A stretch of DNA of 31,387 nucleotides from a virus, in IMG/VR virus record IMGVR_UViG_3300032304_001632, positions 1 through 31,387 of that record. One strand, given 5' to 3'. The translations under genes and the position numbers were made by a program. Below the pieces are notes generated by a model. The model ran no database searches. It saw nothing but the letters and a program-made list of their open reading frames with translations, and was not told where the DNA came from. Positions 3-28,629 of this stretch are shown here, in pieces (positions within the stretch are counted from its first letter, which is position 1; the number at the start of each line of letters is the position of its first letter).

Positions 3-1568
3 GGTGATATTAGTTGTTTAGATAAATTTGGTAAAGAATTATTTGGTGACCAGTTCGGTGGTCACGAAAAGAATACTAGACTAGAAGATGAATACGTCAA
101 GTTAATAAATCAATTTGGTGCAATAGCATTTGGTCAAGGTATAGACCCAAAATTTATAAGTGCAATGGTTGATTTAAAGAAATGTATGTCAACATACCCA
201 GAAGTGTTAATAAATGAACCAGAAACGATATATCGTGGGTCAAATATGCCACTTAGTTTTTTTATAAAAAATAGGATTAAAATTAGTGAAGAACCAGTTG
301 ATTATACATATAACCCAAGAACAATTGTTCAAAGTTGGACACCAAATATAGTTATTTCAAAAATATTTAGCAAACCAAATAACGTACTAAATAAAATTGG
401 TGGTATTTTTATTGAATACCATAAAAAAGGTCTTAAAGCTGAAGATAAATTTTTTACAGAAGTGTTAACAAAATCAGAGTATTTAAACGCTCAAATACCA
501 ATAATTTACATTACTCAATCAAATGAAAGTGAATTTTTATTTAAACATAAATATTTTAATGAATTAACCAAAACTGATGAAGATGAACTTATTAGAGTTT
601 CTATGGAACCAATTAAAGTTAAACTTAAAGTTGATTTTTCACATTTAAGTCCTTATGCTAAAAAATTTGCTAATTCATTTAATGATATACTTGAATATGG
701 TTTAGATAATGGTGATGAGTATAGACCAACGATAAATGAATCTGAAGATAAAACAATAAAATGTAAAAACTGTGGGTGGCATTGGAAAGAATCTGAATCA
801 GCTAAAGAAGATTTATATTTATGTCACAAATGTGGTTATGATAATACACCAAGAAATATTAACGAAAGTATTGTTAAGTCTGAATTGGTGGATATAGATG
901 ATGATGATTTATACGATTCTTTGGATAATCAGGCAAACACACTAAGAAGTACTAGTGAAATTAGTTTTGGTTCGGCTGACCCATTTGAAATACTATATGA
1001 TGATGAAACTGGTCGTTTAGCTGGTGCAACTTGGATTGAAACTTCTGGTGCATTTAGCCCACATATGATTATTGACCCAGAATATAGAAAAATGGGCTTA
1101 TCACAAAAATTAATTGATGGTGTTGTTGAAAAATATAAAAAAATGAAACAATTAAGGGGTGATAACTATACCTTTATGTTGAATGTTGTTAATAATTCAT
1201 TAGCAAATACAATGGAAAAACATTATGGGTTTAAAAAAGTTAGTGAAGACCATAAAAAAAAGATAGGTGAAGCTAATAAGGGAAAAACTTGGTCTGATGA
1301 TAAAGAAAGGGTTGAGAAATTTTCTATTTTAAAGAAAGAACAATATATTGGTGAAAATAATCCATTTTTTGGTAAACAACATTCTGAAGATACGTTAAAA
1401 AAAACCAGAAAACCAATTATAATGTATGACGACAAAATGGTTAAACTTAACGAGTACAAATCACTAACTGAGTGTTCCGAAATGACTGGTTTTCCTATTA
1501 GTAAAATATCATCAGTAGCTAATGGTAAAATTAAACATTATAAAAAATTTAATTTTGAATATAAATAA
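3..1568 (+). CDS. ADP-ribosyltransferase-like / zinc-ribbon / GNAT acetyltransferase fusion with homing-endonuclease tail (5' partial)
   Basis: The reading frame is open from the window edge (codon phase starts at base 3; first internal ATG at 165), so the N terminus is missing. Numbering from that ATG, residues 20-150 carry a possible R-S-E ADP-ribosyltransferase signature: YRG near 23-25, QSWT near 57-60 and an ExE (NESEF) near 119-123. Residues 198-230 form a CxxC...CxxC zinc ribbon. Residues about 265-360 look like a GNAT acetyltransferase with the acetyl-CoA loop YRKMGLSQKL. From about 360 to the end the protein changes to NUMOD3-like repeats (GEANKGK, GENNPFFGKQHS) and a NUMOD1-like module, which are DNA-binding parts of homing endonucleases. 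No nuclease domain is visible, so the tail looks like a captured remnant. Family knowledge: phage ADP-ribosyltransferases such as T4 Alt are injected virion proteins. That role here is inferred; the ART call is the weakest part. Confidence 0.55.
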   Translation, partial: GDISCLDKFGKELFGDQFGGHEKNTRLEDEYVKLINQFGAIAFGQGIDPKFISAMVDLKKCMSTYPEVLINEPETIYRGSNMPLSFFIKNRIKISEEPVDYTYNPRTIVQSWTPNIVISKIFSKPNNVLNKIGGIFIEYHKKGLKAEDKFFTEVLTKSEYLNAQIPIIYITQSNESEFLFKHKYFNELTKTDEDELIRVSMEPIKVKLKVDFSHLSPYAKKFANSFNDILEYGLDNGDEYRPTINESEDKTIKCKNCGWHWKESESAKEDLYLCHKCGYDNTPRNINESIVKSELVDIDDDDLYDSLDNQANTLRSTSEISFGSADPFEILYDDETGRLAGATWIETSGAFSPHMIIDPEYRKMGLSQKLIDGVVEKYKKMKQLRGDNYTFMLNVVNNSLANTMEKHYGFKKVSEDHKKKIGEANKGKTWSDDKERVEKFSILKKEQYIGENNPFFGKQHSEDTLKKTRKPIIMYDDKMVKLNEYKSLTECSEMTGFPISKISSVANGKIKHYKKFNFEYK

Positions 1569-1569: not shown

Positions 1570-2733
1570 ATGAATAAAACAATAAAAAAAATATTAAGAG
1601 AAGGGTTACTTCTTGAATCTAGAATTAAATCTGACATGTATGTACCAGAAGATATATTAGAAATTGCTAATATTTTTAAAAATAATGGTTATAAACTATA
1701 CATAGTTGGGGGAGCTGTCAGAGATTTTTTATTAAATAAAAAAATAAAAGACTACGACCTAGCAACAGATGCTGACCCAGATACTGTTGAACAGATGATG
1801 GCTAAAGCTGGATTCAAAACATTACCAACTGGTAAAGCATTTGGTGTTATAAATGTATTCACTGACCAAGGTGAGTACGAAGTGGCAACCTTCAGAGAAG
1901 ATGTTGGTTCTGGTAGAAGACCAGACTCAGTAAATTTCACAAATATTGAAGGTGATGTTAAAAGACGTGACTTAACAATCAACGCATTATTCTATGATAT
2001 TGAATCAGGTGAAGTAGTTGACTTAGTTGGTGGTATAAATGACCTTAAAAATGGTATTGTTAGAACAGTAGGTAATCCAGAAGATAGGTTTAATGAGGAT
2101 AAATTAAGAATAATGCGGTCAATTAGATTTGCTGGTAGATTTGGTTCTGATTTAGACCCAGCTACAGATGCTGCATTACAAAAAGATTCAAGTCTTCAAG
2201 GTATTTCTGGTGAAAGAATTAGGGATGAATTTATTAAAGGTTTGGCATCAGCAAAATCAACTAAACATTTCTTAGAAATGATTGATAAATACAATTTATT
2301 CTCTTGGGTATTTAAAGGTTTGAATGTGAATAAGCGTTTCATTGACAACGATACACCAATTGTATTAATAGCGATGTTATTATCTAAAAATGAATTAACT
2401 ACATTAGCTAAAAAGTTAAATGAACTTAAATACAGTGCTGATGAAGTTAAAAAGATAACTACATTGATTGCTATGCTTAATTTGGATATCGATACAGCAC
2501 CAAAACTAAAAGGTTTATTTGTAAAATCTGGATTATCTAGTGACAATTTAAGAAACTTTGGTTCAAACATGGGTATAAGTTCACAATTATTGGATTCATT
2601 TGAAGAATACTTAAAATTACCAAATGTTACTGGACCAGAAGCTATGGAAAAATACAAAATAGAAAAACCTGGACCAGAGTTAGGTAAAGCTATAAATGCT
2701 ATGGAAATAGAAAATTTTAAAAAAGTTTTATAA
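1570..2733 (+). CDS. cca: CCA-adding enzyme / poly(A) polymerase family tRNA nucleotidyltransferase
   Basis: Class II tRNA nucleotidyltransferase, which rebuilds the 3' CCA end of tRNA from CTP and ATP. All core motifs are present: VGGAVRDFLL (GG at 47-48), KDYDLATDAD with the metal-binding D61 and D63, RRDLTINAL, EDKLRIMRSIRFAGRFG and the ISGERIRDE helix. At 387 residues it is of normal length. I start it at 1570, two bases after the stop of the upstream gene, not at the in-frame ATG 1522 inside that gene. The N terminus MNKTIKKILREG is a basic helix ending in I-L-R-E/G; the same tag recurs at 9505. It resembles a T4-type capsid-targeting peptide cut by a prohead protease after I/L-x-E, so the enzyme may be packaged. 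Most tRNA genes here do not encode CCA, so this activity would be useful to the phage's own tRNAs. Confidence 0.9.
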   Translation: MNKTIKKILREGLLLESRIKSDMYVPEDILEIANIFKNNGYKLYIVGGAVRDFLLNKKIKDYDLATDADPDTVEQMMAKAGFKTLPTGKAFGVINVFTDQGEYEVATFREDVGSGRRPDSVNFTNIEGDVKRRDLTINALFYDIESGEVVDLVGGINDLKNGIVRTVGNPEDRFNEDKLRIMRSIRFAGRFGSDLDPATDAALQKDSSLQGISGERIRDEFIKGLASAKSTKHFLEMIDKYNLFSWVFKGLNVNKRFIDNDTPIVLIAMLLSKNELTTLAKKLNELKYSADEVKKITTLIAMLNLDIDTAPKLKGLFVKSGLSSDNLRNFGSNMGISSQLLDSFEEYLKLPNVTGPEAMEKYKIEKPGPELGKAINAMEIENFKKVL

Positions 2734-4023: not shown

Positions 4024-4659
4024 ATGAAAATTATATCAGAAAATAAAAGAAAACAAATAGCTATTGACACTCAAAAAGTGATGTTAGAAACTTTTGCAAA
4101 CACTTTTAACAAAATTAAAAGAGATGGTGATTCACAAATCATCACAGAAGAAGCAAAGAAGAATTCTATTGAGCAAAAAGCTAGATTAAGTAAAAGTATT
4201 GTATCGATATTAAATAAACAAATTGAAAACGAACTTTACTCATCACAAATATACCGTTCATTTAGTGCATGGTTAGATGATAAAGGTTGGATTGGTGGTT
4301 CTAAATTGTTCTTTAAATATGCCGATGAAGAATTAGGGCACATGTCAAAAATTTACACATATCTTTATGAGAAAAATTCTAGAGCAATTGTGCCTAATGT
4401 AAAAAATGTACCACAAGATTTTAATGATGTTAGAGATTTAGTTGAAAAAGCTTTGGAACATGAAATGAAAGTTACTAAAAACTGGAATGAAATTGCTAAC
4501 AAAGCTAAAGCTGAAGATGATAATGATACTTATTCATTCGCTTTAGGTTATGTTAATGAACAAAGAGAAGAAGAAGAAAAAATAAGAAATATTCTATTTA
4601 GTATGGATTTAGATATGCCTAAATGGAAAATTGATGAAATGTTTAAAAATTTATTATAA
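4024..4659 (+). CDS. Ferritin-like diiron protein with N-terminal extension
   Basis: 211 residues. From about residue 55 the protein is a ferritin four-helix bundle: NKQIENELYSSQIY (first ferroxidase Glu), then KYADEELGHMSKIYTYL (the E-E-x-x-H site), then EHEMKVTKNWNEI and NEQREEEEKI for helices C and D. Ferritins oxidise and store iron in a 24-subunit shell. The first 50 residues are an extra region absent from normal ferritins (which start near the first helix) and contain SQIITEEA, a possible I-x-E prohead-protease site. I therefore infer a capsid-delivered ferritin, perhaps protecting against oxidative damage or withholding iron; this is speculative. It has a putative late promoter and its stop overlaps the next start by one base. 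Confidence 0.8.
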   Translation: MKIISENKRKQIAIDTQKVMLETFANTFNKIKRDGDSQIITEEAKKNSIEQKARLSKSIVSILNKQIENELYSSQIYRSFSAWLDDKGWIGGSKLFFKYADEELGHMSKIYTYLYEKNSRAIVPNVKNVPQDFNDVRDLVEKALEHEMKVTKNWNEIANKAKAEDDNDTYSFALGYVNEQREEEEKIRNILFSMDLDMPKWKIDEMFKNLL

Positions 4660-5005: not shown

Positions 5006-5482
5006 ATGAGAAGATTTGATAAAAATGAAAATATTAGAAAAGCTAATTTATTAGCCGAACAAAGATACCTAGCTTCAAAAGGTGTAATCAATGAAAATGA
5101 TAGTGAAGATTGGGAATTAGAAGATAGAAAACAACAATACGACATCAACCCAGAAATTGAACCATTAGAATTTCAAGATATTAATGAACCAGTATCCGAA
5201 AACTCTAATGACACCTATTTTGAAACCCTTAGCGCAGCTTTAGATGCTGTTAGAGCAAAAGCTGAACAATTAGGATTTGAAGTTGATGAGCAATCTATTT
5301 GGACTAGTTTTGGTACTGGTGGTATTCCGTATGAAACTGATAAATCAGTAAATATCCCATTATTACAGAACGGTGAACCAATCCTAGATAAGAGAGGTAA
5401 AGAAGCTAATAGATATTTACGTGTGTCAATATATAGAATGTCTAGTGGTAGGTATGAATTAACCATGTATAAAACTTGGTAA
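5006..5482 (+). CDS. Hypothetical protein with shared N-terminal tag
   Basis: 158 residues, two bases after the previous stop. Residues 1-33 (DKNENIRKANLLAEQRYLAS, then KGVINEN) match the tag of the upstream gene, again ending in I-N-E/N. The remainder is an acidic linker (35-70) followed by a small alpha/beta region (ALDAVRAKAEQLGFEVDEQS, then the beta-rich YLRVSIYRMSSGRYELTMYK). The C-terminal MYKTW recurs in the small protein at 6318. I do not recognise the domain. Shared tag plus unrelated body suggests a targeting peptide, most likely to the capsid. Confidence 0.7.
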   Translation: MRRFDKNENIRKANLLAEQRYLASKGVINENDSEDWELEDRKQQYDINPEIEPLEFQDINEPVSENSNDTYFETLSAALDAVRAKAEQLGFEVDEQSIWTSFGTGGIPYETDKSVNIPLLQNGEPILDKRGKEANRYLRVSIYRMSSGRYELTMYKTW

Positions 5483-5515
5483 AATAAAAAAAAATAAAAA
5501 TATTTTTAAAAAAAC

Positions 5516-5546
5516 TTGCCAAATAGAAAAACTTTTAGTATATTTG
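5516..5546 (+). promoter_or_regulatory. Strong Bacteroidetes-type promoter of tRNA operon 1
   Basis: TTG at 5516-5518, 20 bases, TATATTTG at 5539-5546. The stretch AGTATATTTGCATATATTTA is identical in the promoters at 27935 and 30656, which head the other two tRNA operons. Confidence 0.85.
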
Positions 5547-5580
5547 CATATATTTAATTAATAAACGAATAAAAAACACA

Positions 5581-5679
5581 ATGAGAACAAATAACATACA
5601 TAGAATGTCGATTAGTAATTGGAGACGCAATAGTCTACAAACTAGGTCTGGTATGTTCAGAGATATCATTGAGTTCTAA
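5581..5679 (+). CDS. Leader peptide of tRNA operon 1 (putative attenuator)
   Basis: 32-codon ORF between the strong promoter and an intrinsic terminator. It starts MRTNNIHRMSISNWRRNS. Among these residues are His, Trp, Arg, Ser, Asn, Ile and Met, the same set as the tRNAs downstream (His, Trp, Ser x2, an Ile anticodon, Asn, Met, Arg x2). Both Arg codon boxes (AGA/AGG and CGC) and both Ser boxes (TCG/TCT and AGT) appear, matching the two isoacceptors of each. CTAGGT (5642-5647) inside the ORF can pair with ACCTAG (5710-5715), which forms part of the terminator stem and loop. I infer ribosome-mediated attenuation. There is no protein homology; the argument rests on position, composition and pairing. 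Confidence 0.6.
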   Translation: MRTNNIHRMSISNWRRNSLQTRSGMFRDIIEF

Positions 5680-5705
5680 AATAAGAATTTAAAAATAATC
5701 AGAAG

Positions 5706-5735
5706 CCCAACCTAGAAATAGTGTTGGGTTTTTTT
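5706..5735 (+). terminator. Terminator/attenuator of tRNA operon 1
   Basis: CCCAAC...GTTGGG stem (5706-5711 with 5723-5728), extended inside by CTA/TAG around a GAAA loop, followed by seven T. It lies between the leader ORF and the operon. Its 5' side can alternatively pair with the leader ORF. Confidence 0.85.
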
Positions 5736-5749
5736 ATGTCATAAAAATT

Positions 5750-5947
5750 ATGGAAGAATTGGTAAGAACATTGGGAACTGTAAAAGATAAAAAGTTTAAA
5801 GAAAATTTTGACGAAGTTGTTGACGAGTATAAAGAAAAAGCAAAACAAATGGGTTACAACGGTGACCTAAGATTTAAAAAAGAAAAAGGTAACATTGTTA
5901 TAATGGTTACAATAGATGGTGGTTGTAGCTCAGAGGAAGAGTGCTAG
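5750..5947 (+). CDS. Small hypothetical protein overlapping tRNA-His
   Basis: 65 residues, start ATG 15 bases after the attenuator. The body is charged and helical (DKKFKENFDEVVDEYKEKAK) followed by a short beta hairpin (GDLRFKKEKGNIVIMVTID). The last nine codons (GGCSSEEEC) and the stop lie inside the tRNA-His gene, so the C terminus is tRNA sequence read as protein. Either the gene ran into the tRNA after losing its stop, or cutting of the precursor to release the tRNA would destroy the mRNA and couple the two products. I do not recognise the family. Confidence 0.6.
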   Translation: MEELVRTLGTVKDKKFKENFDEVVDEYKEKAKQMGYNGDLRFKKEKGNIVIMVTIDGGCSSEEEC

Positions 5948-5990
5948 ATTGTGATTCTAGAGGTCGGGATTTCGAAATTCCTCAGCCACC
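5918..5990 (+). tRNA. tRNA-His (GTG)
   Basis: Acceptor GTGGTTG/CAGCCAC with the G-1 (5918) and C73 (5990) typical of histidine tRNA. The anticodon arm CTAGA-TTGTGAT-TCTAG gives GTG. The T stem has one mismatch. CCA is not encoded. The first 30 bases are also the end of the upstream CDS. Confidence 0.9.
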
Positions 5991-5998
5991 CAAAACAA

Positions 5999-6010
5999 GT
6001 TCTTTGACAT
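5999..6010 (+). promoter_or_regulatory. boxA-like antitermination element
   Basis: GTTCTTTGACAT resembles the boxA of bacterial rRNA operons (E. coli GCTCTTTAACA). The same 12-mer occurs at 31017-31028 after tRNA-Phe, and the flanking bases are also similar (ATATT/TGGTAAAATAAAA against ATATT/TGTAGAATAAAA). It may recruit host NusB/NusE to keep polymerase going through structured tRNA. Confidence 0.5.
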
Positions 6011-6028
6011 ATTGGTAAAATAAAACAC

Positions 6029-6101
6029 ACTGCGCAGCATAATGGTATGCACCAGGTCTCCAAAACCTCGGATGGACAGAGTTCGATTCTCTGGCGTAGT
6101 G
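6029..6101 (+). tRNA. tRNA-Trp (CCA)
   Basis: Acceptor ACTGCGC/GCGTAGT with G73. The anticodon loop CTCCAAA gives CCA. The T arm is CAGAG-TTCGATT-CTCTG. The outer base pair of the anticodon stem is mismatched. No encoded CCA tail. Confidence 0.88.
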
Positions 6102-6112
6102 CAAAATAATAC

Positions 6113-6195
6113 GGAAGGAGCCCGAATGGACGAGGACACCGCCTTGAAAGCGGCTGGGTGTAAAAGCTTTGGGGGTTCGATTCCCTCTTCTTCCG
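6113..6195 (+). tRNA. tRNA-Ser (TGA)
   Basis: Acceptor GGAAGGA/TTCTTCC, discriminator G. The loop CTTGAAA gives anticodon TGA. A long variable arm and a T arm of the usual form support a class II serine tRNA that reads TCN codons. Confidence 0.88.
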
Positions 6196-6200
6196 CCCTT

Positions 6201-6254
6201 GATTATTAGGTCTGGACCTAATAATCCTATAATATAAGGTTATAACCTAATAAT
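6201..6254 (+). other. Alternative hairpins between tRNA-Ser and a small ORF
   Basis: GATTATTAGGT (6201-6211) pairs perfectly with ACCTAATAATC (6216-6226) around CTGG. A second ACCTAATAAT (6245-6254), overlapping the palindrome AGGTTATAACCT (6237-6248), could compete for the same partner. There is no T run, so this is more likely a processing or switch element than a terminator. Confidence 0.55.
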
Positions 6255-6262
6255 TTAAAACT

Positions 6263-6289
6263 ATGAAAAAAGAATTAGATATGTTGTAA
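6263..6289 (+). other. Micro-ORF overlapping a start-site hairpin
   Basis: An 8-codon ORF (MKKELDML) ends inside the 5' arm of a hairpin at 6282-6315 (TGTTGT..GGTCTG with CAGACT.ACAACA), which sits directly before the ATG at 6318. Translation of the micro-ORF could open the hairpin and expose that start. Low certainty. Confidence 0.3.
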
Positions 6290-6317
6290 GGTCTGCTATT
6301 CACAGACTCACAACATT

Positions 6318-6506
6318 ATGAGTAAAAACATTAACAGAGCAAAACTGAACAAAGCGCAAAATGGTAGACAATACCGAATCATGTTAATCAATGATTTTTA
6401 TCCAATTTATTGGGATGATGGTATAATTTACTACGGAAACAAAATGAGTTACCAAGTTAGAATGTACAAAACTTGGAAACACAACAGAAAAACAAGGTGG
6501 AAGTAA
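6318..6506 (+). CDS. Small basic hypothetical protein
   Basis: 62 residues, strongly basic (ends MYKTWKHNRKTRWK) with a beta-rich centre (GRQYRIMLINDFYPIYWDD). Its GRxY..MYKTW ending resembles the end of the protein at 5006, so the two may share a small fold. It lies between tRNA genes. The stop codon is in the loop of a perfect 9-bp hairpin, and the start is preceded by another hairpin. Function unknown. Confidence 0.55.
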   Translation: MSKNINRAKLNKAQNGRQYRIMLINDFYPIYWDDGIIYYGNKMSYQVRMYKTWKHNRKTRWK

Positions 6507-6520
6507 TGGGGCTTCCACCT
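6495..6520 (+). other. Perfect 9-bp hairpin at the end of the small ORF
   Basis: AGGTGGAAG/CTTCCACCT around an 8-base loop, with no T run, immediately before a tRNA gene. Likely a processing or stability hairpin; it may act as a weak terminator. Confidence 0.6.
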
Positions 6521-6525
6521 CAAAA

Positions 6526-6610
6526 CGTTAAGTACCCGAACGGTTTTCAGGGACCAGTCTGATACACTGGGTGCGAAAGCACGATGTGGGTTCGAATCCC
6601 ACCTTAACGA
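6526..6610 (+). tRNA. Class II tRNA with Ile-type anticodon GAT (tyrosine-like body)
   Basis: Acceptor CGTTAAG/CTTAACG, discriminator A. The D arm is TACCCGAACGG...AGGGA. The anticodon arm CCAGT-CTGATAC-ACTGG is fully paired and gives GAT. The variable arm GTGC-GAAA-GCAC is long, and the T arm is GTGGG-TTCGAAT-CCCAC. Isoleucine tRNAs are class I; the D arm and variable arm here resemble bacterial tRNA-Tyr, whose anticodon is GTA. Which amino acid it carries cannot be told from the sequence. C1-G72 is also unusual for bacterial Ile or Tyr tRNA. Confidence 0.75.
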
Positions 6611-6657
6611 CTAAATGCAGATGCATCCCCTCAAGCTTATTTTTTGTATCTTGTAGT

Positions 6658-6665
6658 ATATTTAT
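6658..6665 (+). promoter_or_regulatory. ATATTTAT motif, putative late promoter
   Basis: Exact octamer 16 bases before the homing endonuclease at 6681. Confidence 0.5.
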
Positions 6666-6680
6666 TAATAAATAGATGTT

Positions 6681-7082
6681 ATGAAACGAGGTAGAAAAAT
6701 AAAAAGAGATTGTCAATATTGTAAAAATGAATTTGAAGTATTGATGATTAAAGCAAGGCAAGGTAAAGGGTTGTATTGCAGCACTACATGTTACCATTCG
6801 TATAGAAAGGAACATTCAAAAGACCCAAAGTATTTGAATATTATACACCAGAAAACACACAAGTATGGTATAACCGAATCTGAATACTTAGGTATGTTTG
6901 AAGAACAAAACAATTCTTGTGCGATATGTGAAACATCATTTGGTGATGTTAGAGCATGTGTTGACCACTCACATAAAACTGGTATTGTGAGGGGATTGTT
7001 ATGTGATAGTTGTAATAAAGGTTTGGGGATGTTTAAAGACAACCCAGAGTTATTAATTAAAGCAATAAAATACCTTGAATAA
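6681..7082 (+). CDS. Endonuclease VII-like (HNH-type) homing endonuclease
   Basis: 133 residues. The N-terminal half has paired cysteines (CQYCKNEF and CSTTC) forming a zinc-binding DNA-recognition module. The C-terminal half matches the recombination endonuclease VII family: YGITESEYLGMFEEQNNSCA, ICE, then VDHSHKTGIVRGLLCDSCNK and GLGMFKDNPELL. The DHSH dyad is catalytic and the four cysteines bind zinc. Free-standing proteins of this kind in phages are selfish homing enzymes, unlike the Holliday-junction resolvase gp49 of T4. It lies inside the tRNA cluster, directly before an abnormal tRNA (7084-7163), which suggests insertion damaged that gene. Confidence 0.85.
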   Translation: MKRGRKIKRDCQYCKNEFEVLMIKARQGKGLYCSTTCYHSYRKEHSKDPKYLNIIHQKTHKYGITESEYLGMFEEQNNSCAICETSFGDVRACVDHSHKTGIVRGLLCDSCNKGLGMFKDNPELLIKAIKYLE

Positions 7083-7083
7083 A

Positions 7084-7163
7084 CGAGACGTACCGAGACA
7101 TGCTTATATCATGTATAGTCGTAGCGGTTGTTGAAAACGTGGGTTCGAATCCCACCGTCTCGA
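7084..7163 (+). tRNA. Abnormal tRNA (intact acceptor and T arm, disrupted centre)
   Basis: Acceptor CGAGACG/CGTCTCG, T arm GTGGG-TTCGAAT-CCCAC and discriminator A are perfect. The 48 bases between do not fold into ordinary D and anticodon arms. The only good stem is ACATG-CTTATAT-CATGT, which has a seven-base loop and would give anticodon TAT (Ile, AUA), but it sits where the D arm should be. Either a degenerating gene or an unusual D-armless tRNA. It begins two bases after the stop of the endonuclease gene. Confidence 0.45.
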
Positions 7164-7210
7164 CAGAAAGGGTAGTTGGTCACATGTGAGTTCGAATCTC
7201 ACCTTCTGTA
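7163..7210 (+). pseudogene. tRNA relic lacking the anticodon arm
   Basis: Acceptor ACAGAAA/CTTCTGT (one mismatch) and T arm GTGAG-TTCGAAT-CTCAC are present, and GGGTAGTTGGTC looks like a D arm, but only 16 bases separate acceptor and T stem, so the anticodon arm is missing. Its first base is the discriminator of the previous tRNA. Confidence 0.6.
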
Positions 7211-7211
7211 C

Positions 7212-7281
7212 AAAGTTTATGCAATCTACGGGGTCTCTCATGTAATATTGAGGCGTGTCTAACCCAAAGCCTCTAAACTTT
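7212..7281 (+). other. Structured region of unknown type
   Basis: An outer helix AAAGTTTA (7212-7219) / TAAACTTT (7274-7281) encloses a GAGGC/GCCTC hairpin (7250-7254 with 7269-7273). The length is tRNA-like (70 bases), but there is no TTCGAAT loop or readable anticodon arm. The T run at the 3' side could also make this a terminator. Possibly another decayed tRNA. Confidence 0.4.
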
Positions 7282-7286
7282 TTTAT

Positions 7287-7361
7287 TCTGGGGAAGCTTA
7301 AGTGGTATACAGCTACGGCCTGTTAAGCCGAAGATAGTGGGTTCGAGTCCCACCCCCAGAG
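7287..7361 (+). tRNA. tRNA-Asn (GTT)
   Basis: Acceptor TCTGGGG/CCCCAGA, discriminator G. The anticodon loop CTGTTAA gives GTT. T arm GTGGG-TTCGAGT-CCCAC. No encoded CCA. Confidence 0.9.
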
Positions 7362-7489
7362 CAATATTTGGTTACCCCGCTTGTTCCGTATGGGGTTATA
7401 AAGATGAATCAGTTAACGGAGCCCATGAAGGTACCTATACCGAAGAAAATAGGAAAGATTCTACAATCAACCAAAATGGCGATAGTTAG
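7361..7489 (+). other. Gap with an open frame but no start codon
   Basis: The 116 bases between tRNA-Asn and tRNA-Met contain no recognisable tRNA. One frame is open for 43 codons and reads like a hydrophilic protein (GYPACSVWGYKDESVNGAHE), but it has no start codon and begins at the last base of tRNA-Asn. It is more GC-rich than its surroundings. Probably a gene remnant or tRNA spacer. Confidence 0.25.
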
Positions 7490-7550
7490 TGGAAAACAAC
7501 CGTCCCTCATATGGATGGTCAAGTGGGTTCGAACCCCACAGTCGCCACCA
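7478..7550 (+). tRNA. tRNA-Met (CAT)
   Basis: Acceptor GGCGATA/AGTCGCC (seventh pair mismatched), discriminator A, followed by an encoded CCA (7548-7550), unlike most neighbours. The loop CTCATAT gives CAT. Elongator Met is the simplest reading; an Ile2 tRNA with modified C34 cannot be excluded. Confidence 0.8.
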
Positions 7551-7560
7551 AATTAAATAT

Positions 7561-7635
7561 ACCCTCGTAGCTCAATTGGATTAGAGCACACGATTACGAC
7601 TCGTGAGGCTGGGAGTTCAAATCTCTCCGAGGGTA
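7561..7635 (+). tRNA. tRNA-Arg (ACG)
   Basis: Acceptor ACCCTCG/CGAGGGT. Anticodon arm CACGA-TTACGAC-TCGTG gives ACG. T arm GGGAG-TTCAAAT-CTCTC. Reads CGN codons after A34 deamination. Confidence 0.92.
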
Positions 7636-7643
7636 CAAAACAC

Positions 7644-7716
7644 GCCCCCATGGTGTAATGGATTAGCACAAGGTCCTTCTAAGGCTTTAGTCCAGGTTCG
7701 AATCCTGGTGGGGGTA
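7644..7716 (+). tRNA. tRNA-Arg (TCT)
   Basis: Acceptor GCCCCCA/TGGGGGT (first pair G-U). The anticodon loop CTTCTAA gives TCT for AGA/AGG codons, the main Arg codons of this AT-rich genome. T arm CCAGG-TTCGAAT-CCTGG. Confidence 0.9.
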
Positions 7717-7722
7717 CAATAT

Positions 7723-7811
7723 AGAGAGGTGCACGAGAGGTTTAAGTGGCCACACTGCTAATGTGGTGGACCTTTAATAAGGTCCCATGGGTTCGAATCC
7801 CATCTTCTCTG
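7723..7811 (+). tRNA. tRNA-Ser (GCT)
   Basis: Acceptor AGAGAGG/CTTCTCT, discriminator G. Anticodon arm CCACA-CTGCTAA-TGTGG gives GCT. Long variable arm. Reads AGT/AGC codons. Confidence 0.92.
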
Positions 7812-7891
7812 CTTTAGTTTTTTGTTGCAATATATACCATTTTTTGGTACATTACGCAATTAATTACTAAAATCTATTTACCAATATGTTA

Positions 7892-7899
7892 ATATTTAT
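7892..7899 (+). promoter_or_regulatory. ATATTTAT motif, putative late promoter
   Basis: Exact octamer four bases before GTG 7904. The same spacing is seen at 8285, 29473 and 31079, which is why I place the start of the GIY-YIG gene at that GTG. Confidence 0.5.
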
Positions 7900-7903
7900 A
7901 TAT

Positions 7904-8272
7904 GTGAGTAAAGAAGAAAAAAAATATCATATTATATATAAAACAACGTGTTTAATCAATAAAAAATATTATATTGGTATGCATTCAACCGATGACCTGG
8001 AAGATGGTTATATGGGTTCTGGAAAAGCGTTAAAATTTTCAATAACAAGATATGGTAAAGAAAATCATAAAGTAGAAATACTTGAAATGGTTGAAAATCG
8101 AGAATTATTGGGTGAAAGAGAAAAAGCTATAGTTACCTTAAATAAAGTTCGAGATGGTAAATGCATGAATTTAAAGATTGGTGGTATTGGTGGTTTTATG
8201 AAAAAAGATAGGAAAAAGAAGAAAAAAAAGAAATCACCAGTAAAAAAAAGACAAACTAAGCCAAAAAAGTAG
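7904..8272 (+). CDS. GIY-YIG homing endonuclease (Seg-like)
   Basis: About 122 residues from GTG 7904. An in-frame ATG at 7886 would add six residues but overlies the promoter-like motif. The GIY-YIG core is clear: YHIIYKTTCLINKKYYIGMH, then YMGSGKALKFSITRYGKENH and the catalytic Glu in ELLGEREKAIV. Phage Seg proteins with the same start (IYKTTN...YIGMH) cut and spread into neighbouring intergenic sites. The C-terminal 30 residues are an almost pure Lys run (KKDRKKKKKKKSPVKKRQ) that may bind DNA non-specifically. It ends the tRNA cluster. Confidence 0.85.
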   Translation: MSKEEKKYHIIYKTTCLINKKYYIGMHSTDDLEDGYMGSGKALKFSITRYGKENHKVEILEMVENRELLGEREKAIVTLNKVRDGKCMNLKIGGIGGFMKKDRKKKKKKKSPVKKRQTKPKK

Positions 8273-10470: not shown

Positions 10471-10635
10471 ATGAATATATTTGTTTTAGACGAGAATCCA
10501 CAAATTGCTGCGCAGATGCACAATGATAAACATGTGGTAAAAATGATACTTGAAACTTTTATAAAGTTACACATATTTATAAATAAAAAGATATGGAAAC
10601 TTGTGAAATTTGTAAAGAATCATTTAAAAATCTAA
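10471..10635 (+). pseudogene. 5' fragment of a gene truncated by a homing endonuclease
   Basis: MNIFVLDENPQIAAQMHNDK followed by HVVKMILETF matches the first 30 residues of the intact gene at 11620 (MNIFALDLDTKKCAQYHVDK, then HITKMCVEYAQ). The likeness then ends and a short unrelated tail runs 43 bases into the homing endonuclease gene at 10593 in another frame. The break is at the upstream edge of that gene. The promoter is still in place. No 3' remainder of this copy is visible. Confidence 0.75.
10573..10580 (+). promoter_or_regulatory. ATATTTAT motif, putative late promoter
   Basis: Exact octamer 12 bases before the homing endonuclease at 10593. Confidence 0.5.
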
Positions 10636-11561
10636 AGGGATTAACTACCCATGTTAATTCTAAACATAAACTAACTGGTAAAGAATACTATGATGGATAC
10701 CTTAAAAAAGAAGGTGAAGGTCAGTGTATTGTTTGTGGTAGTGAAACTACTTATAGGAATGTTGGTGTTGGATATTTGGGTAATTGTTCTATGAAATGTA
10801 GAAATAAGAATAAAACCATCAAACGTGATTATTGGAAAGGTAAAACTCAATCAAATGAGCATATTGAGAAGCGAATATTAAATACAAATCAAGAGGTTAA
10901 ACAAACTAATTGGGAGTCATCAATATTGGAAAAATATGGTGTTAGTAACCCAAGTAAATTAGATTCAGTTAAAACTAAAATTAGTATTGGTAATAAAGGT
11001 AAAACTGTTGATAGAGATTCAGAATGGCAAAATAAAATCATTGATTCAAAAAGAAAAAATGGTACGTTAAAACATTCCAATGAAACTAAATCTAAAATTG
11101 GTAATGGCCTTAATAAGTATCATTCATTAAATTTAGATAGAGAGAAATACATATCTAAATCAAATAATATTAGTCATTTTTGTGGTTGGTATAATGGATT
11201 ATATTTTAGGAGTTCATTAGAATTATCTTTTTTATTCATAAATAAAGAGGTATCTTATACTAGTTGTGAAAAGAACAAGTATAAGATTATCTATGAGAAA
11301 GATGGTAAAAAAAAAGTTTACTATCCCGATTATACCGATGGTGATATAATTTATGAGATTAAACCAAGTACTTTATTAGAATATAAAGATAATGATTTAA
11401 AGATTAAGAAAGGTTTAGAATTATATGGTGATAAGTATAAAGTCATCACTGAAAAAGAAACACCATATATTGAGAAAACTAAAATATTAGAGTTAATTGG
11501 AACTGGTATTGTGTGTGTTAACGAAAAATCATTAAAAATATTAGAAAAATATAAACATTAA
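10593..11561 (+). CDS. Homing endonuclease with zinc finger, NUMOD repeats and PD-(D/E)XK-like nuclease
   Basis: 322 residues. Residues 1-30 are a C2H2-like finger (CEICKESFKNLKGLTTHVNS, then KH). A second CxxC pair lies near 45-70. Residues 100-180 have KYGVSNPSKLDS and GNKGK repeats typical of NUMOD DNA-binding modules. The C-terminal part has the order E...D...ExK: YFRSSLELSFLF, VYYPDYT and IIYEIKPS, as in PD-(D/E)XK nucleases. The gene sits at the break of the truncated copy at 10471 and just before an intact paralogue. Confidence 0.8.
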   Translation: METCEICKESFKNLKGLTTHVNSKHKLTGKEYYDGYLKKEGEGQCIVCGSETTYRNVGVGYLGNCSMKCRNKNKTIKRDYWKGKTQSNEHIEKRILNTNQEVKQTNWESSILEKYGVSNPSKLDSVKTKISIGNKGKTVDRDSEWQNKIIDSKRKNGTLKHSNETKSKIGNGLNKYHSLNLDREKYISKSNNISHFCGWYNGLYFRSSLELSFLFINKEVSYTSCEKNKYKIIYEKDGKKKVYYPDYTDGDIIYEIKPSTLLEYKDNDLKIKKGLELYGDKYKVITEKETPYIEKTKILELIGTGIVCVNEKSLKILEKYKH

Positions 11562-14774: not shown

Positions 14775-14785
14775 ATGTATCTTTG
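14754..14785 (+). promoter_or_regulatory. Bacteroidetes-type promoter of RNA ligase 1
   Basis: TTTG at 14754-14757, 20 bases, TATCTTTG at 14778-14785. It lies downstream of an in-frame ATG at 14775, so that ATG cannot be the start; ATG 14805 is. Confidence 0.8.
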
Positions 14786-14804
14786 CAAACAAATAAAAAA
14801 TAAT

Positions 14805-15386
14805 ATGTTAGCAATAATAGATTACATTAAAAAATATGGTTTAGAAAAAGCAATATCTGAATTTAATTTGGTTTGTAAAGAATATAAACATAAGGTTCTA
14901 TTAAAATACAATCAGATAGAATCTGACATGTCAATACCAGAAGTTCAAGATTGTAGAGGTATAATACTTGAAAGAGGTACTTGGAATGTAATGTCATTGG
15001 CCTTTAGAAAATTCTTTAATAGTGGTGAAACACATGCAGCAAAAATAGATTGGGATACAGCACACATCTTAAATAAAGAAGATGGTTGCTGTCATGAAGA
15101 TACAATTATTATAACTGAGGATGGTGAAATGACAATCCGTTATATATGTGAAACCGAATACTCTGGTAAAGTTTTATCATTTGATTTAGAAACAAATGAA
15201 CCAGTATATGATGAAATAGTTAATTATTCAATTAAAAATAATATTAATAATTGGTTTGAGATTGACTTAGAAGATGGTACTACTATTAAACTAACTGGTA
15301 ATCACAAAGTATGGTTACCTAATCTAAAGTGCTACCGTAGGGTTGATGAATTGACTGAGTATAATGAATTCTTATTAATTACTTAA
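14805..15386 (+). CDS. RNA ligase 1 N-terminal part fused to split-intein N half
   Basis: 193 residues from ATG 14805. Residues 1-94 are the start of a T4 Rnl1-type RNA ligase (EVQDCRGIILERG, AFRKFFNSGE) and end in the nucleotidyl-transfer motif KEDG with the catalytic Lys at 91. Residues 95-193 are an intein N half: Cys at +1, block A (CCHEDTIIITEDGEM), block B with the T-x-x-H motif (LEDGTTIKLTGNHKVW), then a stop. The break is between Gly and the Ser that follows it in T4 (KEDG|S). The C half with the matching start is at 16452. Joined, the exteins would give 94 + 278 = 372 residues, close to the 374 of T4 Rnl1. The enzyme seals RNA with 5'-phosphate and 3'-OH ends and in T4 repairs cleaved tRNA. 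It cannot work before trans-splicing, because motif I is separated from the rest. Confidence 0.9.
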   Translation: MLAIIDYIKKYGLEKAISEFNLVCKEYKHKVLLKYNQIESDMSIPEVQDCRGIILERGTWNVMSLAFRKFFNSGETHAAKIDWDTAHILNKEDGCCHEDTIIITEDGEMTIRYICETEYSGKVLSFDLETNEPVYDEIVNYSIKNNINNWFEIDLEDGTTIKLTGNHKVWLPNLKCYRRVDELTEYNEFLLIT

Positions 15387-15424
15387 AAAATTTGATACTC
15401 ATCTAACTTTTCAAGTATTAACTG

Positions 15425-15432
15425 ATATTTAT
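15425..15432 (+). promoter_or_regulatory. ATATTTAT motif, putative late promoter
   Basis: Exact octamer 17 bases before the homing endonuclease at 15450, inside the fractured ligase locus. Confidence 0.5.
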
Positions 15433-15449
15433 TAATAAAGATATTAGTT

Positions 15450-16364
15450 ATGAATGTAAAATGTAAGAAGTGTGGTGGTGAATTTAATAATAAAATGTTT
15501 AAATTACATGTTAGAAATTCACACATAGATGAATTTAATAATGAAGATGAAATGGAGTTATTTGTACTTAACAATAGATTTAATCTAACTGATGAATTAA
15601 TTGGTTATTTAATTAGTAAATACGAAAATGATGGTTCAGTGTTTTCGTTAGTTAATGAATATGGTATACCACATAAAAGTTTATCGTTATTGTTTAAATT
15701 AAGTGGTGTTAAATTGAAAACATTAGGTGAGGTGGCTAAACAGAAATCAGTTAGGGATAAATATAGTAAAACATGTTTAAAAAATCATGGTGTTTCTAAT
15801 GTTTCAAAATCAGATGTGGTAAAGGAAAAGAAGAAAAAAACATTTATTGAAAATTATGGTGTTGATAATATTTTCAAGAGTGATGAGTTTAAAGACACTA
15901 TAAATGATATCATGTTAACCAAGTATGGTGTTAAACGAATAGCTAATTGGGATTATTTAACTGATGAACAGAAAAGTGAACGCATTAAGAAATTAAATAG
16001 TGGTGGTTCTTCTAAGTTAGAGAAAAGAGTAGGTAAGATTTTAGTCGAAATGGGGGTAAAGTTCGAAGTACAATTTGAATTAAAAGGTAAGATATATGAT
16101 TATTATATTAAAGGTACAAACATATTAATAGAGGTTAATGGTGATTTCTGGCACGCCAACCCAAGTAAATATAAAGCGACAGATATTTTACCATTTCCAA
16201 ATAAAAGTGTAGTTGCTGAATCATTATGGAAGAAAGATGAAAAAAAGTTAAATATTGCTTTGAAAAATGGTTATAATGTATTACCTTTATGGGAAATGGA
16301 TATTAGACCATTAAATGATATAGAATTAGAGTTATTTATATTAGAAAAAATTAATAATTTATAG
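15450..16364 (+). CDS. Vsr-like (EDxHD-type) homing endonuclease inside the split ligase
   Basis: 304 residues. An N-terminal CxxC...HxxxxH finger (CKKCGGEFNNKMFKLHVRNS, then H) is followed by two NUMOD-type repeats (KNHGVSNVSKSD and ENYGVDNIFKSDEF). The C-terminal domain has the very-short-patch-repair fold: GSSKLEKRVGKILVEMGVKF, DYYIKGTNILIEVNGDFWHA, then WKKDEKKLNIALKNGYNVLP and LWEMDI. The E, D, W-H and D residues fit the EDxHD family of which I-Bth0305I is the known member. The same type of enzyme has been described between split-intein halves of other fractured phage genes, so its position here is typical. Confidence 0.88.
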   Translation: MNVKCKKCGGEFNNKMFKLHVRNSHIDEFNNEDEMELFVLNNRFNLTDELIGYLISKYENDGSVFSLVNEYGIPHKSLSLLFKLSGVKLKTLGEVAKQKSVRDKYSKTCLKNHGVSNVSKSDVVKEKKKKTFIENYGVDNIFKSDEFKDTINDIMLTKYGVKRIANWDYLTDEQKSERIKKLNSGGSSKLEKRVGKILVEMGVKFEVQFELKGKIYDYYIKGTNILIEVNGDFWHANPSKYKATDILPFPNKSVVAESLWKKDEKKLNIALKNGYNVLPLWEMDIRPLNDIELELFILEKINNL

Positions 16365-16451
16365 TAGGGAATCTGAAAATTACCCTCATCGATATTTGTA
16401 GGACCGCTGTGAGTTAGTGGGAAGTCTATCAACTATAATAAATGATATAAT
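16365..16451 (+). other. Gap before the intein C half, with a possible stem
   Basis: Contains GACCGCT / AGTGG..GTC arms at about 16402-16427 that can form a helix, and a GGG/CCC pair upstream. No promoter of either class is evident. It could be a leader controlling translation of the downstream half; I see no group I intron core. Confidence 0.3.
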
Positions 16452-17402
16452 ATGAAAATAGTTAAAATAAAAAATATTAAAGAAATTGAATGTATCTCTA
16501 AGAGATATGATATTCAAACAAAAGAAACTAATAATTTTTTTGCTAATGGTATACTGGTACATAACTCTATGATACAAGTTTATTGGGATTGGCATGATAT
16601 GATGTGGTATGCTGGAACTACTGGAACTGCAAATGGTGAGGGTGAAGTTAATAACAAATATGGTACAACATTTAATGACCTATTTTGGGATACCGTTAAC
16701 AACAAATATACATTCAATGAATGTTTGTTGAACAAAGACCTTATATATGTCTTTGAGTTATGTACACCATATAACATTGTTGTTACACCACACGGTGAAT
16801 CATCAGCAAAATTATTGGCTGTTAGAAATAGATTAACATTAAAAGAACTATCACAAGCTGATTTATATATGGTTTCAGAATCATTGGGGATACCATTGGT
16901 TAAAGCATATGATTTAAATGTTGGTAATGCTGATGAGTTAGCTAAAACATTAGTTGGTATGCCATGGTCTGAAGAAGGATATGTTGTTAGAGATGCTAAT
17001 GATAATAGAGTTAAAATCAAAAATCCAGCATATTTGGCCGTTCACCACTTAAAAGGTAAAACTGCTGAACACAACATAATGACTATCGTTAAAACTAATG
17101 AAATCGAAGAATTCGCTTCAACGTTTCCAGGTAGAAAGGAAGAATTGTATCGTTTAAAAGAAGGATACGATGAATTGGTATCCAAGTTGGAATCAATATG
17201 GTCTGAACTTGATGAAATAAGACCATCTGATGCATCTTCTGGTGAAAGAAAGAGGTTTGCTATGTCATTAATGGAAACAACTGCTAAACACGATTTAAAA
17301 ATGTTTACTGGATTGTATTTTGGGTTGGTTGATGGTAAAGTGGAATCGATTAAAGAATATATGTTAAACTACGATGATAAATTGTTATATAAGATGATAT
17401 AA
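16452..17402 (+). CDS. Split-intein C half fused to RNA ligase 1 C-terminal part
   Basis: 316 residues. Residues 1-38 are an intein C half with block F (RYDIQTKETNNFFANG) and block G (ILVHN) ending in Asn, followed by Ser as +1 nucleophile. Ser is the natural residue after KEDG in T4 Rnl1. The extein (278 residues) carries the remaining ligase motifs: YVFELCTPYNIVV (motif III-like region), EEGYVVRD (motif IV) and RVKIKNPAYLAVH (motif V), then the C-terminal domain. It pairs with the N half at 14805. Naturally split inteins fold and splice when the halves meet, so active ligase would appear only when both parts are made. Confidence 0.9.
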   Translation: MKIVKIKNIKEIECISKRYDIQTKETNNFFANGILVHNSMIQVYWDWHDMMWYAGTTGTANGEGEVNNKYGTTFNDLFWDTVNNKYTFNECLLNKDLIYVFELCTPYNIVVTPHGESSAKLLAVRNRLTLKELSQADLYMVSESLGIPLVKAYDLNVGNADELAKTLVGMPWSEEGYVVRDANDNRVKIKNPAYLAVHHLKGKTAEHNIMTIVKTNEIEEFASTFPGRKEELYRLKEGYDELVSKLESIWSELDEIRPSDASSGERKRFAMSLMETTAKHDLKMFTGLYFGLVDGKVESIKEYMLNYDDKLLYKMI

Positions 17403-20163: not shown

Positions 20164-21048
20164 ATGGTTAAAAATTATTATGTTTATCAAATAACAGATG
20201 AAGTAACGAACCAATTTTATATTGGTTCCAGGGGTTGTTATTGTGATATTAATGAGGATAAATATTTGGGGTCTCCAAAAATTTGGAAACCAAATAAAAA
20301 AAGATTAACAAAAGAAATAATTTCATCTTTTGAAAATAGGAATGATGCAATACTTTTTGAACGAAATTTGATAATTAATAATTTATCAAACGAATTGAAT
20401 ATGAATTTTAGTATACCACACCCTAATATTCATCGTGAAAACTTAATTACCGCTAAAGATAAATCTGGTAAAATAATAACTATTTATAAAGATGACCCAT
20501 TATTTGGTGTTGAATATTTTGGGGTTTCAAAGGGGTTAGTACTAGTAAAAGACTGTGAAGACAATGTATTTATGACTAATGTTACTGACCCTAGATATAT
20601 TAATGGGGAATTAACACATTATAATAAGGGTAAAAATGTTGGTTCAGAACACCATAATTTTAATAAAATATGGGTTAATAATGGTTTTAAACAAAAATTA
20701 GTAGATTCTTCAGAAATATTGATTGGTTGGGTATTTGGTACTTTACAAAAAGGGTTTGATACACCATCATCACACAAAAAAACTATATGGGTTAATTTTG
20801 AGGATAAAAATAAAAGGGTTAAAGATTCAGAAATAAATGAATACATAAGTAAAGGTTGGAAAATTGGTCGCTCAAACTTAAAAGAATATGAAAAAAGTGG
20901 TAACAGAAAAATTGTGATACCTGACTTAAAAGGTTATAAATGGATTCATAATATTGAATTAAAAGTAAACAAAAGAGTAATAAATAATCAAATTGAAGAA
21001 TTTATAAATAATGAGTGGGTTTTGGGTCGTTTTAATTTTAAAAAATAA
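20164..21048 (+). CDS. GIY-YIG homing endonuclease with C-terminal repeats
   Basis: 294 residues. N-terminal GIY-YIG domain: YYVYQITDEVTNQFYIGSRG, KYLGSPKIW and catalytic Glu in AILFERNLI. The C-terminal half has three copies of a short repeat (IWVNNGFKQKLVDSSE...GWVFG, IWVNFEDKNKRVKDSE...GWKIG, KWIHNIELKVNKRV...EWVLG), each probably one DNA-binding finger. Such repeats are usual for phage homing enzymes of this type. Confidence 0.88.
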   Translation: MVKNYYVYQITDEVTNQFYIGSRGCYCDINEDKYLGSPKIWKPNKKRLTKEIISSFENRNDAILFERNLIINNLSNELNMNFSIPHPNIHRENLITAKDKSGKIITIYKDDPLFGVEYFGVSKGLVLVKDCEDNVFMTNVTDPRYINGELTHYNKGKNVGSEHHNFNKIWVNNGFKQKLVDSSEILIGWVFGTLQKGFDTPSSHKKTIWVNFEDKNKRVKDSEINEYISKGWKIGRSNLKEYEKSGNRKIVIPDLKGYKWIHNIELKVNKRVINNQIEEFINNEWVLGRFNFKK

Positions 21049-22122: not shown

Positions 22123-23097
22123 TTAATTTATAAAATTATACCACGAAGTATATTCTTGATAATATTCCATATTTGATGGAATATTATCAACCTTATTATT
22201 TTTTTTATATTTTTTCCACTCTTTATATTTTTTAATTCCTAAATTTTTGACAAACAACTTACTTTCATTGTAACTTAAAAAAACTTTATTAAAACTAGCT
22301 ATTTTAATACCACCAGAATCAAATAACTTATCTTTTTTCCTAATCAAAAATAAAGAATTATCTGAGTTAATATTTTTATAAATAAAGTCCCTAAAACGTC
22401 TAGTATCATTAACCCCCATATTCAAATAATAATACTTACCATATCTATTAAATTTACCACCAAAATTAATTATTAACTCCAGCAATTTTTCAACAAGACA
22501 TTTTAAAAATAATTCATTAGCACAAATGATTGATGATACATAACATTTTTCATTTTTTTGATATGTAACACAACCATCACCATCAAAAAACCCTCTTATA
22601 AAATCACTATATAAATTATCATCATTAAATTTTGGGAATTTAATATTGTATGTTTTATTTTTACCATCATAATTAAATATTTTGGTTAAATCATTAAATA
22701 TATTTTTAGATTTTATAAAAAATGCTTTATTATCACCATGATTTAATAAGTGGTGGTTAGATGCCATAATGGTTAAAATTTTAGATAATAGATATTCATC
22801 ATTTTTATGTTGTGTTATTGAAAACCCCCTATTAATATTTAAAAACCCATCAGCAGCCCATAACCCTAAAATATATGCCATATTATTATTTTCTATTTTA
22901 AAGTAATCATCATTAACTGAATATTTTCTTAAATCATAACTTTTAGATAAAAATTCATACCAACCTTTCCATTCATTTTTAAATACTCTTTCTGGATGAT
23001 ATGGTGTTATTTTAAATTTTTTAGCATGATTAAACCAATCCTTAGCTGATTTTATATTATGTTTAATTGCATATTCTTTTGATTCTTTATAATTCAT
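22123..23097 (-). CDS. LAGLIDADG homing endonuclease with flanking repeat modules
   Basis: 324 residues. Two LAGLIDADG helices: YILGLWAADGFL and DFIRGFFDGDGCV, each with the metal-binding Asp. Both ends carry a copy of a small module: near the N terminus ITPYHPERVFKNEWKGWYEF, near the C terminus NIPSNMEYYQEYTSWYNFI. These resemble the phage-integrase repeat (INT_rpt, P-x-x-P-x-x-x-Y-x-x-x-W-x-G-W-x-x-F) used as a DNA-binding unit. The gene is opposite to its neighbours and follows the truncated nucleotidyltransferase. Confidence 0.88.
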   Translation of the reverse strand: MNYKESKEYAIKHNIKSAKDWFNHAKKFKITPYHPERVFKNEWKGWYEFLSKSYDLRKYSVNDDYFKIENNNMAYILGLWAADGFLNINRGFSITQHKNDEYLLSKILTIMASNHHLLNHGDNKAFFIKSKNIFNDLTKIFNYDGKNKTYNIKFPKFNDDNLYSDFIRGFFDGDGCVTYQKNEKCYVSSIICANELFLKCLVEKLLELIINFGGKFNRYGKYYYLNMGVNDTRRFRDFIYKNINSDNSLFLIRKKDKLFDSGGIKIASFNKVFLSYNESKLFVKNLGIKKYKEWKKYKKNNKVDNIPSNMEYYQEYTSWYNFIN

Positions 23098-23956: not shown

Positions 23957-23970
23957 TATCTGGGGTTTTA
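23943..23970. terminator. Bidirectional terminator between convergent genes
   Basis: AAACCCCAGA / TCTGGGGTTT stem with six-base loop. A T run follows on the plus strand and the A run gives T on the minus strand. The stop codon of the plus-strand gene is in the loop. Confidence 0.85.
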
Positions 23971-28213: not shown

Positions 28214-28229
28214 CAAAAAAGTAAAGATT

Positions 28230-28447: not shown

Positions 28448-28452
28448 CAAAT

Positions 28453-28535: not shown

Positions 28536-28541
28536 CAATAT

Positions 28542-28625: not shown

Positions 28626-28629
28626 CAAA

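Follow-up and report, generated by a model that had tools for sequence, protein, structure and literature searches.

Metagenomes alone have supplied the bacterial-virus fragment analyzed here (31,387 bases, hereafter the window), which opens with a reading frame that seems to begin as one kind of gene and to end as another. The frame (positions 3-1568, plus strand) runs through 521 uninterrupted codons, and its first internal ATG lies at position 165; because the contig begins there, its 5' end is missing. An N-terminal module, a zinc ribbon and a GNAT-like module are followed by a tail that resembles the DNA-binding part of homing endonucleases (Table 1). The question raised by this locus is whether a phage enzyme has acquired a way to bind DNA or whether the tail is the trace of an accident. 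We consider it probable that the remnant of a homing gene was fused accidentally, and in frame, to the final module of a protein that may be virion cargo.

Table 1. Features of the first reading frame of the window and of the gene that follows it
Feature	Position	Strand	Remarks
N-terminal module (residues 1-243)	3..731	+	5' end missing; earlier label ADP-ribosyltransferase-like
INE↓S motif, first module joint (residues 244-247)	732..743	+	putative prohead-protease-like cleavage site; [LI]NE count; L003 homology from ~736
Zinc-ribbon module (CKNCGWHW...CHKCGYDN)	744..857	+	86% DNA identity to L003 over 736-856
INE↓S motif, second module joint (residues 286-289)	858..869	+	L002 homology starts between 859 and 868
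GNAT acetyltransferase module	867..1250	+	without the last ~9 residues present in its two orthologues
Fusion joint	1248..1253	+	L002 and L075 homologous in DNA up to 1251; NUMOD3 in frame after
First NUMOD3 motif	1233..1289	+	initial residues come from GNAT (KKVSED resembles KKHSEE)
Second NUMOD3 motif (NPFFGKQHSEDTLKK)	1350..1403	+	Pfam profile match
NUMOD1/I-HmuI-type helix-turn-helix domain	1449..1559	+	profile, model and structure matches
CCA-adding/poly(A) polymerase-type tRNA nucleotidyltransferase, begins MNKTIKKILREGLLLES	1570..2733	+	start homologous to L002 6689-6723

A preliminary description of this DNA took the last ~100 residues for NUMOD modules without a nuclease, and both parts of that assignment held. 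Two NUMOD3 motifs and a helix-turn-helix (HTH) of the I-HmuI/I-TevI type lie within the last ~105 residues. In Pfam, NUMOD3 (PF07460) matched two stretches of the whole reading frame (E = 1.2e-7) and also the tail alone (E = 5e-10; 39.6 bits, cut-off 20.4), while the I-HmuI-type NUMOD-like domain (PF22083) scored 23.8 bits, below its cut-off of 27. Residues 2-111 of the 112-residue tail aligned with profile positions 285-387 of 574 in the homing endonuclease family phrog_314 (E = 3.7e-11). The segment made up of GNAT and tail matched positions 85-211 of 215 in the group I intron endonuclease profile TIGR01453 (E = 1.2e-7); this match starts within GNAT residues and reaches 32 bits, below the 56-bit cut-off. 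The last ~50 residues were modelled at pLDDT of at least 90, and the modelled HTH matched I-HmuI (Foldseek E = 1.3e-4; Z 9.6, 62 aligned, rmsd 2.8), more weakly the DNA-binding domain of I-TevI (Z 5.8), and weakly AcrVA3 (Z 4.8). The tail contains no stop and no visibly broken motif. We conclude that the tail is no chance resemblance but the DNA-binding, C-terminal half of a homing endonuclease.

The order of two NUMOD3 motifs followed by an HTH is that of homing endonucleases (TIGR01453, PF07460, PF22083, I-TevI), and the tail can be aligned with homing endonucleases of Streptococcus and Enterococcus phages at 36 and 31% identity. Unlike those enzymes, the window's protein has a GNAT module where the nuclease would be, and neither a GIY-YIG nor any other nuclease domain was found among its Pfam or NCBIfam matches. 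The parent homing gene was probably of the GIY-YIG type, given the TIGR01453 match and the closest relatives of the tail; an HNH parent is possible.

Comparison with related loci shows where the two parts meet. Two orthologues of the GNAT module were available, in L002 and L075, and neither carries the tail. The L002 module is 92% identical in DNA over window positions 868-1251 and ends ...YGFKKVSEDPHGNITMTL before its stop codon. The L075 contig starts inside the GNAT module and is 97% identical over the 33 residues that it holds; its GNAT end reads ...SEDPNGNITMTI (...YGFKKVSEDPNGNITMTI) before the stop codon. The window tracks both relatives up to base 1251 and then diverges abruptly. Homology to L002 returns at 1570-1604 (L002 6689-6723) with the ATG of the tRNA nucleotidyltransferase gene, 1 base past the stop of the fusion. 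Missing relative to L002 is the interval 5398-6688, which comprises the last GNAT codons and a 397-residue relative of GP88; where L002 has the GP88 relative, L075 carries another gene, of 430 residues, which makes the identity of the lost gene uncertain. The joint between GNAT and NUMOD has no INE↓S site. The comparison supports the idea that a decayed homing gene had become fused to the end, in that the tail is absent from both orthologues and homology breaks off sharply; the word "decayed" is half right, for the nuclease half has been lost while profile matches to the DNA-binding motifs persist. A tail missing from all orthologues and carrying disrupted motifs had been named as the refuting outcome; we found it missing from both comparable orthologues, but its motifs are not disrupted. 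Their intactness could reflect selection or a recent origin.

A short series of events would produce this arrangement. The starting gene would have encoded a multi-module phage protein (N-terminal module, zinc ribbon and GNAT), one of a capsid-cargo-like set whose modules are separated by [LI]NE↓ motifs resembling prohead-protease sites of the T4 type. A homing gene, probably GIY-YIG, would have been present or inserted between the GNAT gene and the tRNA nucleotidyltransferase gene. An illegitimate exchange would then have joined the GNAT codons for KKVSED to the similar-looking beginning of a NUMOD3 motif (KKxSEE/D), removing the last ~9 residues of GNAT together with the nuclease half of the homing gene and, if the ancestor was like L002, the intervening gene as well; the DNA-binding half would have been left as the new C-terminus. 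In the window, KKVSED does stand at the position of the NUMOD3 motif KKxSEE/D. In 67 contexts, the longest codon-aligned run of identical bases between homing genes and the GNAT codons was 9 bases, a microhomology that we treat as suggestive only, since the motif is common. An exchange at a short look-alike stretch nonetheless appears to be the simplest account of the joint. We infer this mechanism, the homing-gene parent, packaging into the head and cleavage at INE↓S from the sequences.

The same joint could have been made by assembly software, if the first 1.25 kb had been wrongly attached from another phage. With a left arm this short, placed at the end of the contig, a single wrong join would be sufficient. 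The bases common to homing genes and GNAT codons, however, form a run shorter than usual assembly k-mers, in a comparison from which the true parent is missing. Moreover, both sides of the joint match one locus in L002, with GNAT upstream and tRNA nucleotidyltransferase downstream, and the reading frame is preserved across it. We regard an artefact as quite unlikely.

The fusion seems to have come at a cost to the GNAT module. The GNAT label itself finds weak support in Pfam, with scores of 21.0 bits (cut-off 23.6) and 20.5 bits (cut-off 27) in the window, and the equivalent module of L002 gives a concordant match, likewise below cut-off (24.4 bits, cut-off 27). Orthologues had been expected to end near residue 355, which was off: GNAT homology extends to about residue 416. 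All six of the other GNAT modules that we compared, picked by eye (three from L002 and one each from L003, L095 and L075), have hydrophobic endings beyond the GF/KKVSED region (such as KEMILRL and NITMTL); the first L002 module and that of L095 are above Pfam cut-offs, the last L002 module is below, and the rest were not family-scanned. Where these modules have their hydrophobic ending, the window has HKKKIGEANKG. The replaced ending is what we take to be the last beta strand of the GNAT fold. The GNAT part of the structural model is mostly below pLDDT 60, and its similarity to acetyltransferases (Z ~5) is for this reason not counted as evidence.

These observations bear on the possibility that the protein is a working, DNA-targeted acetyltransferase, whose tail has been retained to anchor GNAT on phage or host DNA after injection. 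Such an enzyme would account for a tail that is in frame, with motifs that match their profiles and a C-terminal HTH that is confidently modelled and matches I-HmuI. A similar HTH arrangement occurs in the DNA-binding protein sCTP-23166 of Paulinella (PDB 8b6e; Z 7.1, in the range of common arrangements), which suggests that an HTH of this type may occur outside nucleases; that protein, however, is a short chain of 52 residues and not the tail of an enzyme. Several features of the locus argue in the other direction: the fusion is found in one contig only and the tail in neither orthologue, the GNAT end that the six other modules keep in some form is lost, and the joint does not fall at a module boundary. 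We therefore think a DNA-targeted enzyme unlikely. The fusion product may have kept an ability to bind DNA, but its origin can be explained without any selected function. What the locus suggests more generally is that a phage enzyme can gain a ready-made DNA-binding module from a homing gene, apparently in one step; the joint can be placed within 1-2 bases, and two tail-less relatives serve for comparison.

The parent of the tail and the recurrence of the fusion were sought in several ways. A direct search with the tail for a parent homing gene found nothing. An alignment search with the tail, over 600 candidate stretches, returned at least 75 loci, the best at ~33-36% identity over most of the tail among the matches listed, and no close parent was among these loci. 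A degenerate DNA pattern found 8 loci (about four distinct proteins), all of homing type by eye, with neither a GNAT nor a close parent among them; two of these, L177 and L181, have 14 bases in common with the window from base 1251, a weak identity because the pattern itself required those residues. By blastn, the tail matched 61 phage records, and the best 10 of the 61 cover at most 19% of it. A search with the whole reading frame in genome_contigs found no match. Among 62 NUMOD3 proteins scanned for families (the window's own and 61 of the at least 75 relatives, with 14 near-duplicates omitted by eye), a GNAT match was confined to the window's protein; 18 had GIY-YIG and 8 had HNH. In-frame joins to homing genes do seem to occur elsewhere, as in L179 (2741-3772, minus strand), where a small phage protein, with similar proteins (<60% identity) in 381 phage records, is fused in frame to a complete GIY-YIG/NUMOD3 homing gene; a repeated GNAT-NUMOD family was not seen in these searches. 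By eye, the first part of the L179 fusion resembles a HAD-type phosphatase, with no Pfam match at E 0.01. GIY-YIG proteins joined to unrelated domains, for example a LuxR module and endonuclease III, are described in the available text of PMC1564403; unlike the window's protein, those fusions retain the nuclease, and the word "acetyltransferase" is absent from that text. In the literature library searched, no paper contained both "NUMOD3" and "acetyltransferase".

Homing-type genes also occur elsewhere in the window, and two relatives have mobile genes inserted at the interval of the fusion. Homing- or HNH-type PHROG matches lie in the window at 15450-16364, 20164-21048 and 22123-23097, and further homing-type genes were recognized by eye at 6681-7082, 10593-11561, 23968-24654 and 28700-29395. 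The insertions ahead of the tRNA nucleotidyltransferase gene comprise a LAGLIDADG gene in L095 (5092-5889, minus strand) and, in L097 (3796-5738), a GIY-YIG fragment followed by ORFs that are transposase-like by eye; the nucleotidyltransferases of L095 and L097 are without the N-terminal peptide common to L002, L003, L093 and the window. These homing-type genes and insertions fit an accidental fusion with a homing gene. The window also contains an ORF at 7886-8272 with a GIY-YIG-like domain (E 0.0014, below cut-off) and no NUMODs, so that a nuclease without NUMODs and NUMODs without a nuclease of this type are present together. They could conceivably be the two halves of a split homing endonuclease, with the tail acting in trans. 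The solo GIY-YIG ORF, however, has a lysine-rich end of its own, and L095 (12002-12424) encodes what by eye is a close solo counterpart, so that the ORF looks like a member of a separate solo family; we also saw no pairing signal, and we consider a split enzyme very improbable.

Two other gene arrangements in the window involve homing-type ORFs. The RNA-ligase gene (phrog_562; 14775-17402) consists of two ORFs split by what appear by eye to be intein halves, and the homing-type endonuclease ORF 15450-16364 lies between them, as in a fractured gene. A 392-residue ORF of L097 (11049-12227) corresponds by eye to two ORFs in the window, 23219-23956 and 25104-25586, which have the HNH-like ORF 23968-24654 (minus strand) between them.

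The gene that received the tail was previously described as a single effector with two modifying domains, the first of them ADP-ribosyltransferase-like. The N-terminal module gave no family, PDB or usable fold match that would bear this out. Pfam, PHROGs and NCBIfam contained no ADP-ribosyltransferase match at E values up to 1, and the PF03496 and PF18760 profiles each matched none of six records at E up to 10. No PDB sequence matched the module, and its AlphaFold model (pLDDT 35.9) was unusable. Against phage records, the module gave two matches, at E = 10; no relative was found with it as a query in viral_contigs or, taken alone, among the collected loci. Residues resembling an R/S/E pattern were recognized by eye only. 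Matches in L006, L028 and L037 start at residue 149-150, at 27-30% identity over a stretch that includes the zinc ribbon. We leave the module unassigned, as profiles, PDB and model gave the ADP-ribosyltransferase identity no support. The domains recognized in the reading frame upstream of the tail are a weak GNAT and a zinc ribbon, and no second enzymatic domain was matched. A single effector with two modifying domains is thus doubtful, the more so because INE↓S motifs stand at the first two joints. The zinc ribbon fared better: it is a CxxC...CxxC module that recurs in other phage loci, although it has no Pfam match at cut-off.

The INE↓S motifs suggest a different organization for proteins of this kind. 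In the available text of PMC9026906, PMC9958956 and PMC5694885, packaged head proteins of T4 and of giant phages are cut after the glutamate of a short motif, and an N-terminal capsid-targeting sequence brings T4 internal proteins into the head. In our loci, the edges of module homology (736-856 for L003; from 859-868 for L002) coincide with INE↓S motifs or are directly next to them; the second of these motifs in the window corresponds to LNE↓G in L002. In ten multi-module proteins, hand-chosen from the window and its relatives, [LI]NE occurred 33 times against 6.3 expected from shuffles, with six of the ten individually not significant and 17 of the 33 occurrences in L006 and L028, which are relatives of each other; in 89 control ORFs from the same loci, taken from both strands and including non-genes, the count was 21 against 15.6 expected. 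The stricter [LI]xE[AGS] gave a modest excess in the ten proteins (28 observed, 15.1 expected; lowest single P 0.037). Of the four [LI]NE motifs in the window's protein, those at residues 70 and 482 lie inside modules and not at joints. A loose cleavage motif within 22 residues upstream of a zinc ribbon was present in 18 of 50 distinct contexts, a count without a background on which we do not rely. The window, possibly a fragment, yielded no S77 protease. Among 12 searched records, each of them possibly a fragment, Peptidase_S77 was above cut-off in 2, and both were reached through the zinc-ribbon module alone; in the two huge-phage records searched it was below cut-off. The N-terminus of the reading frame, the expected place of a capsid-targeting peptide, lies outside the contig.

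Taken together with the motif counts, this arrangement leads us to propose that the multi-module proteins are chains of head-packaged modules that would be cut apart at maturation, and cleavage at INE↓S may be what separates them. If so, a two-enzyme effector would not exist as one mature protein, and the last piece would be GNAT with its NUMOD tail. With [LI]NE present at ordinary joints, it becomes possible to test whether some phages package cargo modules as chains that the head protease then cuts apart; were this true, "multi-domain effectors" of this sort would be several separate virion proteins. The very long multi-module ORFs of L006 (3264-7238), L028 (3273-6461) and L005 (3-2732) are candidate head-packaged polyproteins, in which [LI]NE occurs 10, 7 and 4 times against 1.47, 0.98 and 0.65 expected. 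It seems to us rather improbable that the virion carries an acetyltransferase which took over a homing enzyme's DNA-binding half and which, after cleavage at INE↓S in the head, is anchored to DNA in the host. If real, such an enzyme would be a case of a selfish gene's targeting module domesticated by a phage cargo and caught soon after the event.

The comparison group for such proteins is formed by the T4 internal head proteins and Alt, whose capsid-targeting sequences are cut by gp21, and by head proteins of giant phages, which are cut after glutamate, as far as these are covered by the available text of PMC9026906, PMC9958956, PMC5694885 and PMC10052503. As in that group, genes neighboring or related to the window's start with short common peptides followed by L/I-x-E; in contrast to it, the motif in the window also stands between modules. 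Polyvalent proteins of phages and conjugative elements offer a second parallel. In the available text of PMC5512222, these place several domains on one polypeptide of a mobile element and are predicted to be delivered with its DNA, and a GNAT family typically has an ADP-ribosyltransferase neighbor in the same polypeptide, so that a combination of these two enzymes in one phage polypeptide is already described there. The window's protein is likewise multi-domain, but its ADP-ribosyltransferase is unsupported (no PF18760 match) and its modules are separated by [LI]NE. Neither "homing" nor "NUMOD" is mentioned in that text of PMC5512222, and in the library searched "prohead protease" and "polyvalent protein" came together in a single paper, by way of its reference list.

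The genes downstream of the fusion add several observations on this phage. The tRNA nucleotidyltransferase of the window (Table 1) has counterparts in L002 (6689-7852), L003 (6266-7495), L093 (1485-2651), L098 (5785-7359) and L184 (5980-7152). The N-terminal peptide of the enzyme resembles the one in other genes, whether neighboring or from related records, and reads MKxxIKxILREG.. in the group of the window, MKSFKQFVEQ.. in L098 and MILKKYKMFLES.. in a 635-kb phage record. By eye it is like a capsid-targeting sequence, and the enzyme may be packaged in the virion. A ferritin-like protein (4024-4659; PF00210, E = 4.9e-31) has an N-terminal extension that is similar in L002, L003, L075 and L095. 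The regions 5919-7812 and 28142-31005 of the window contain twelve tRNA genes according to ARAGORN and eleven according to Rfam, and the top-ranked relatives of the nucleotidyltransferase are on phage records of 635 kb (38% identity) and 642 kb (34% identity). Because of the tRNA genes and these relatives, we suggest that the window may be part of a very large phage genome.
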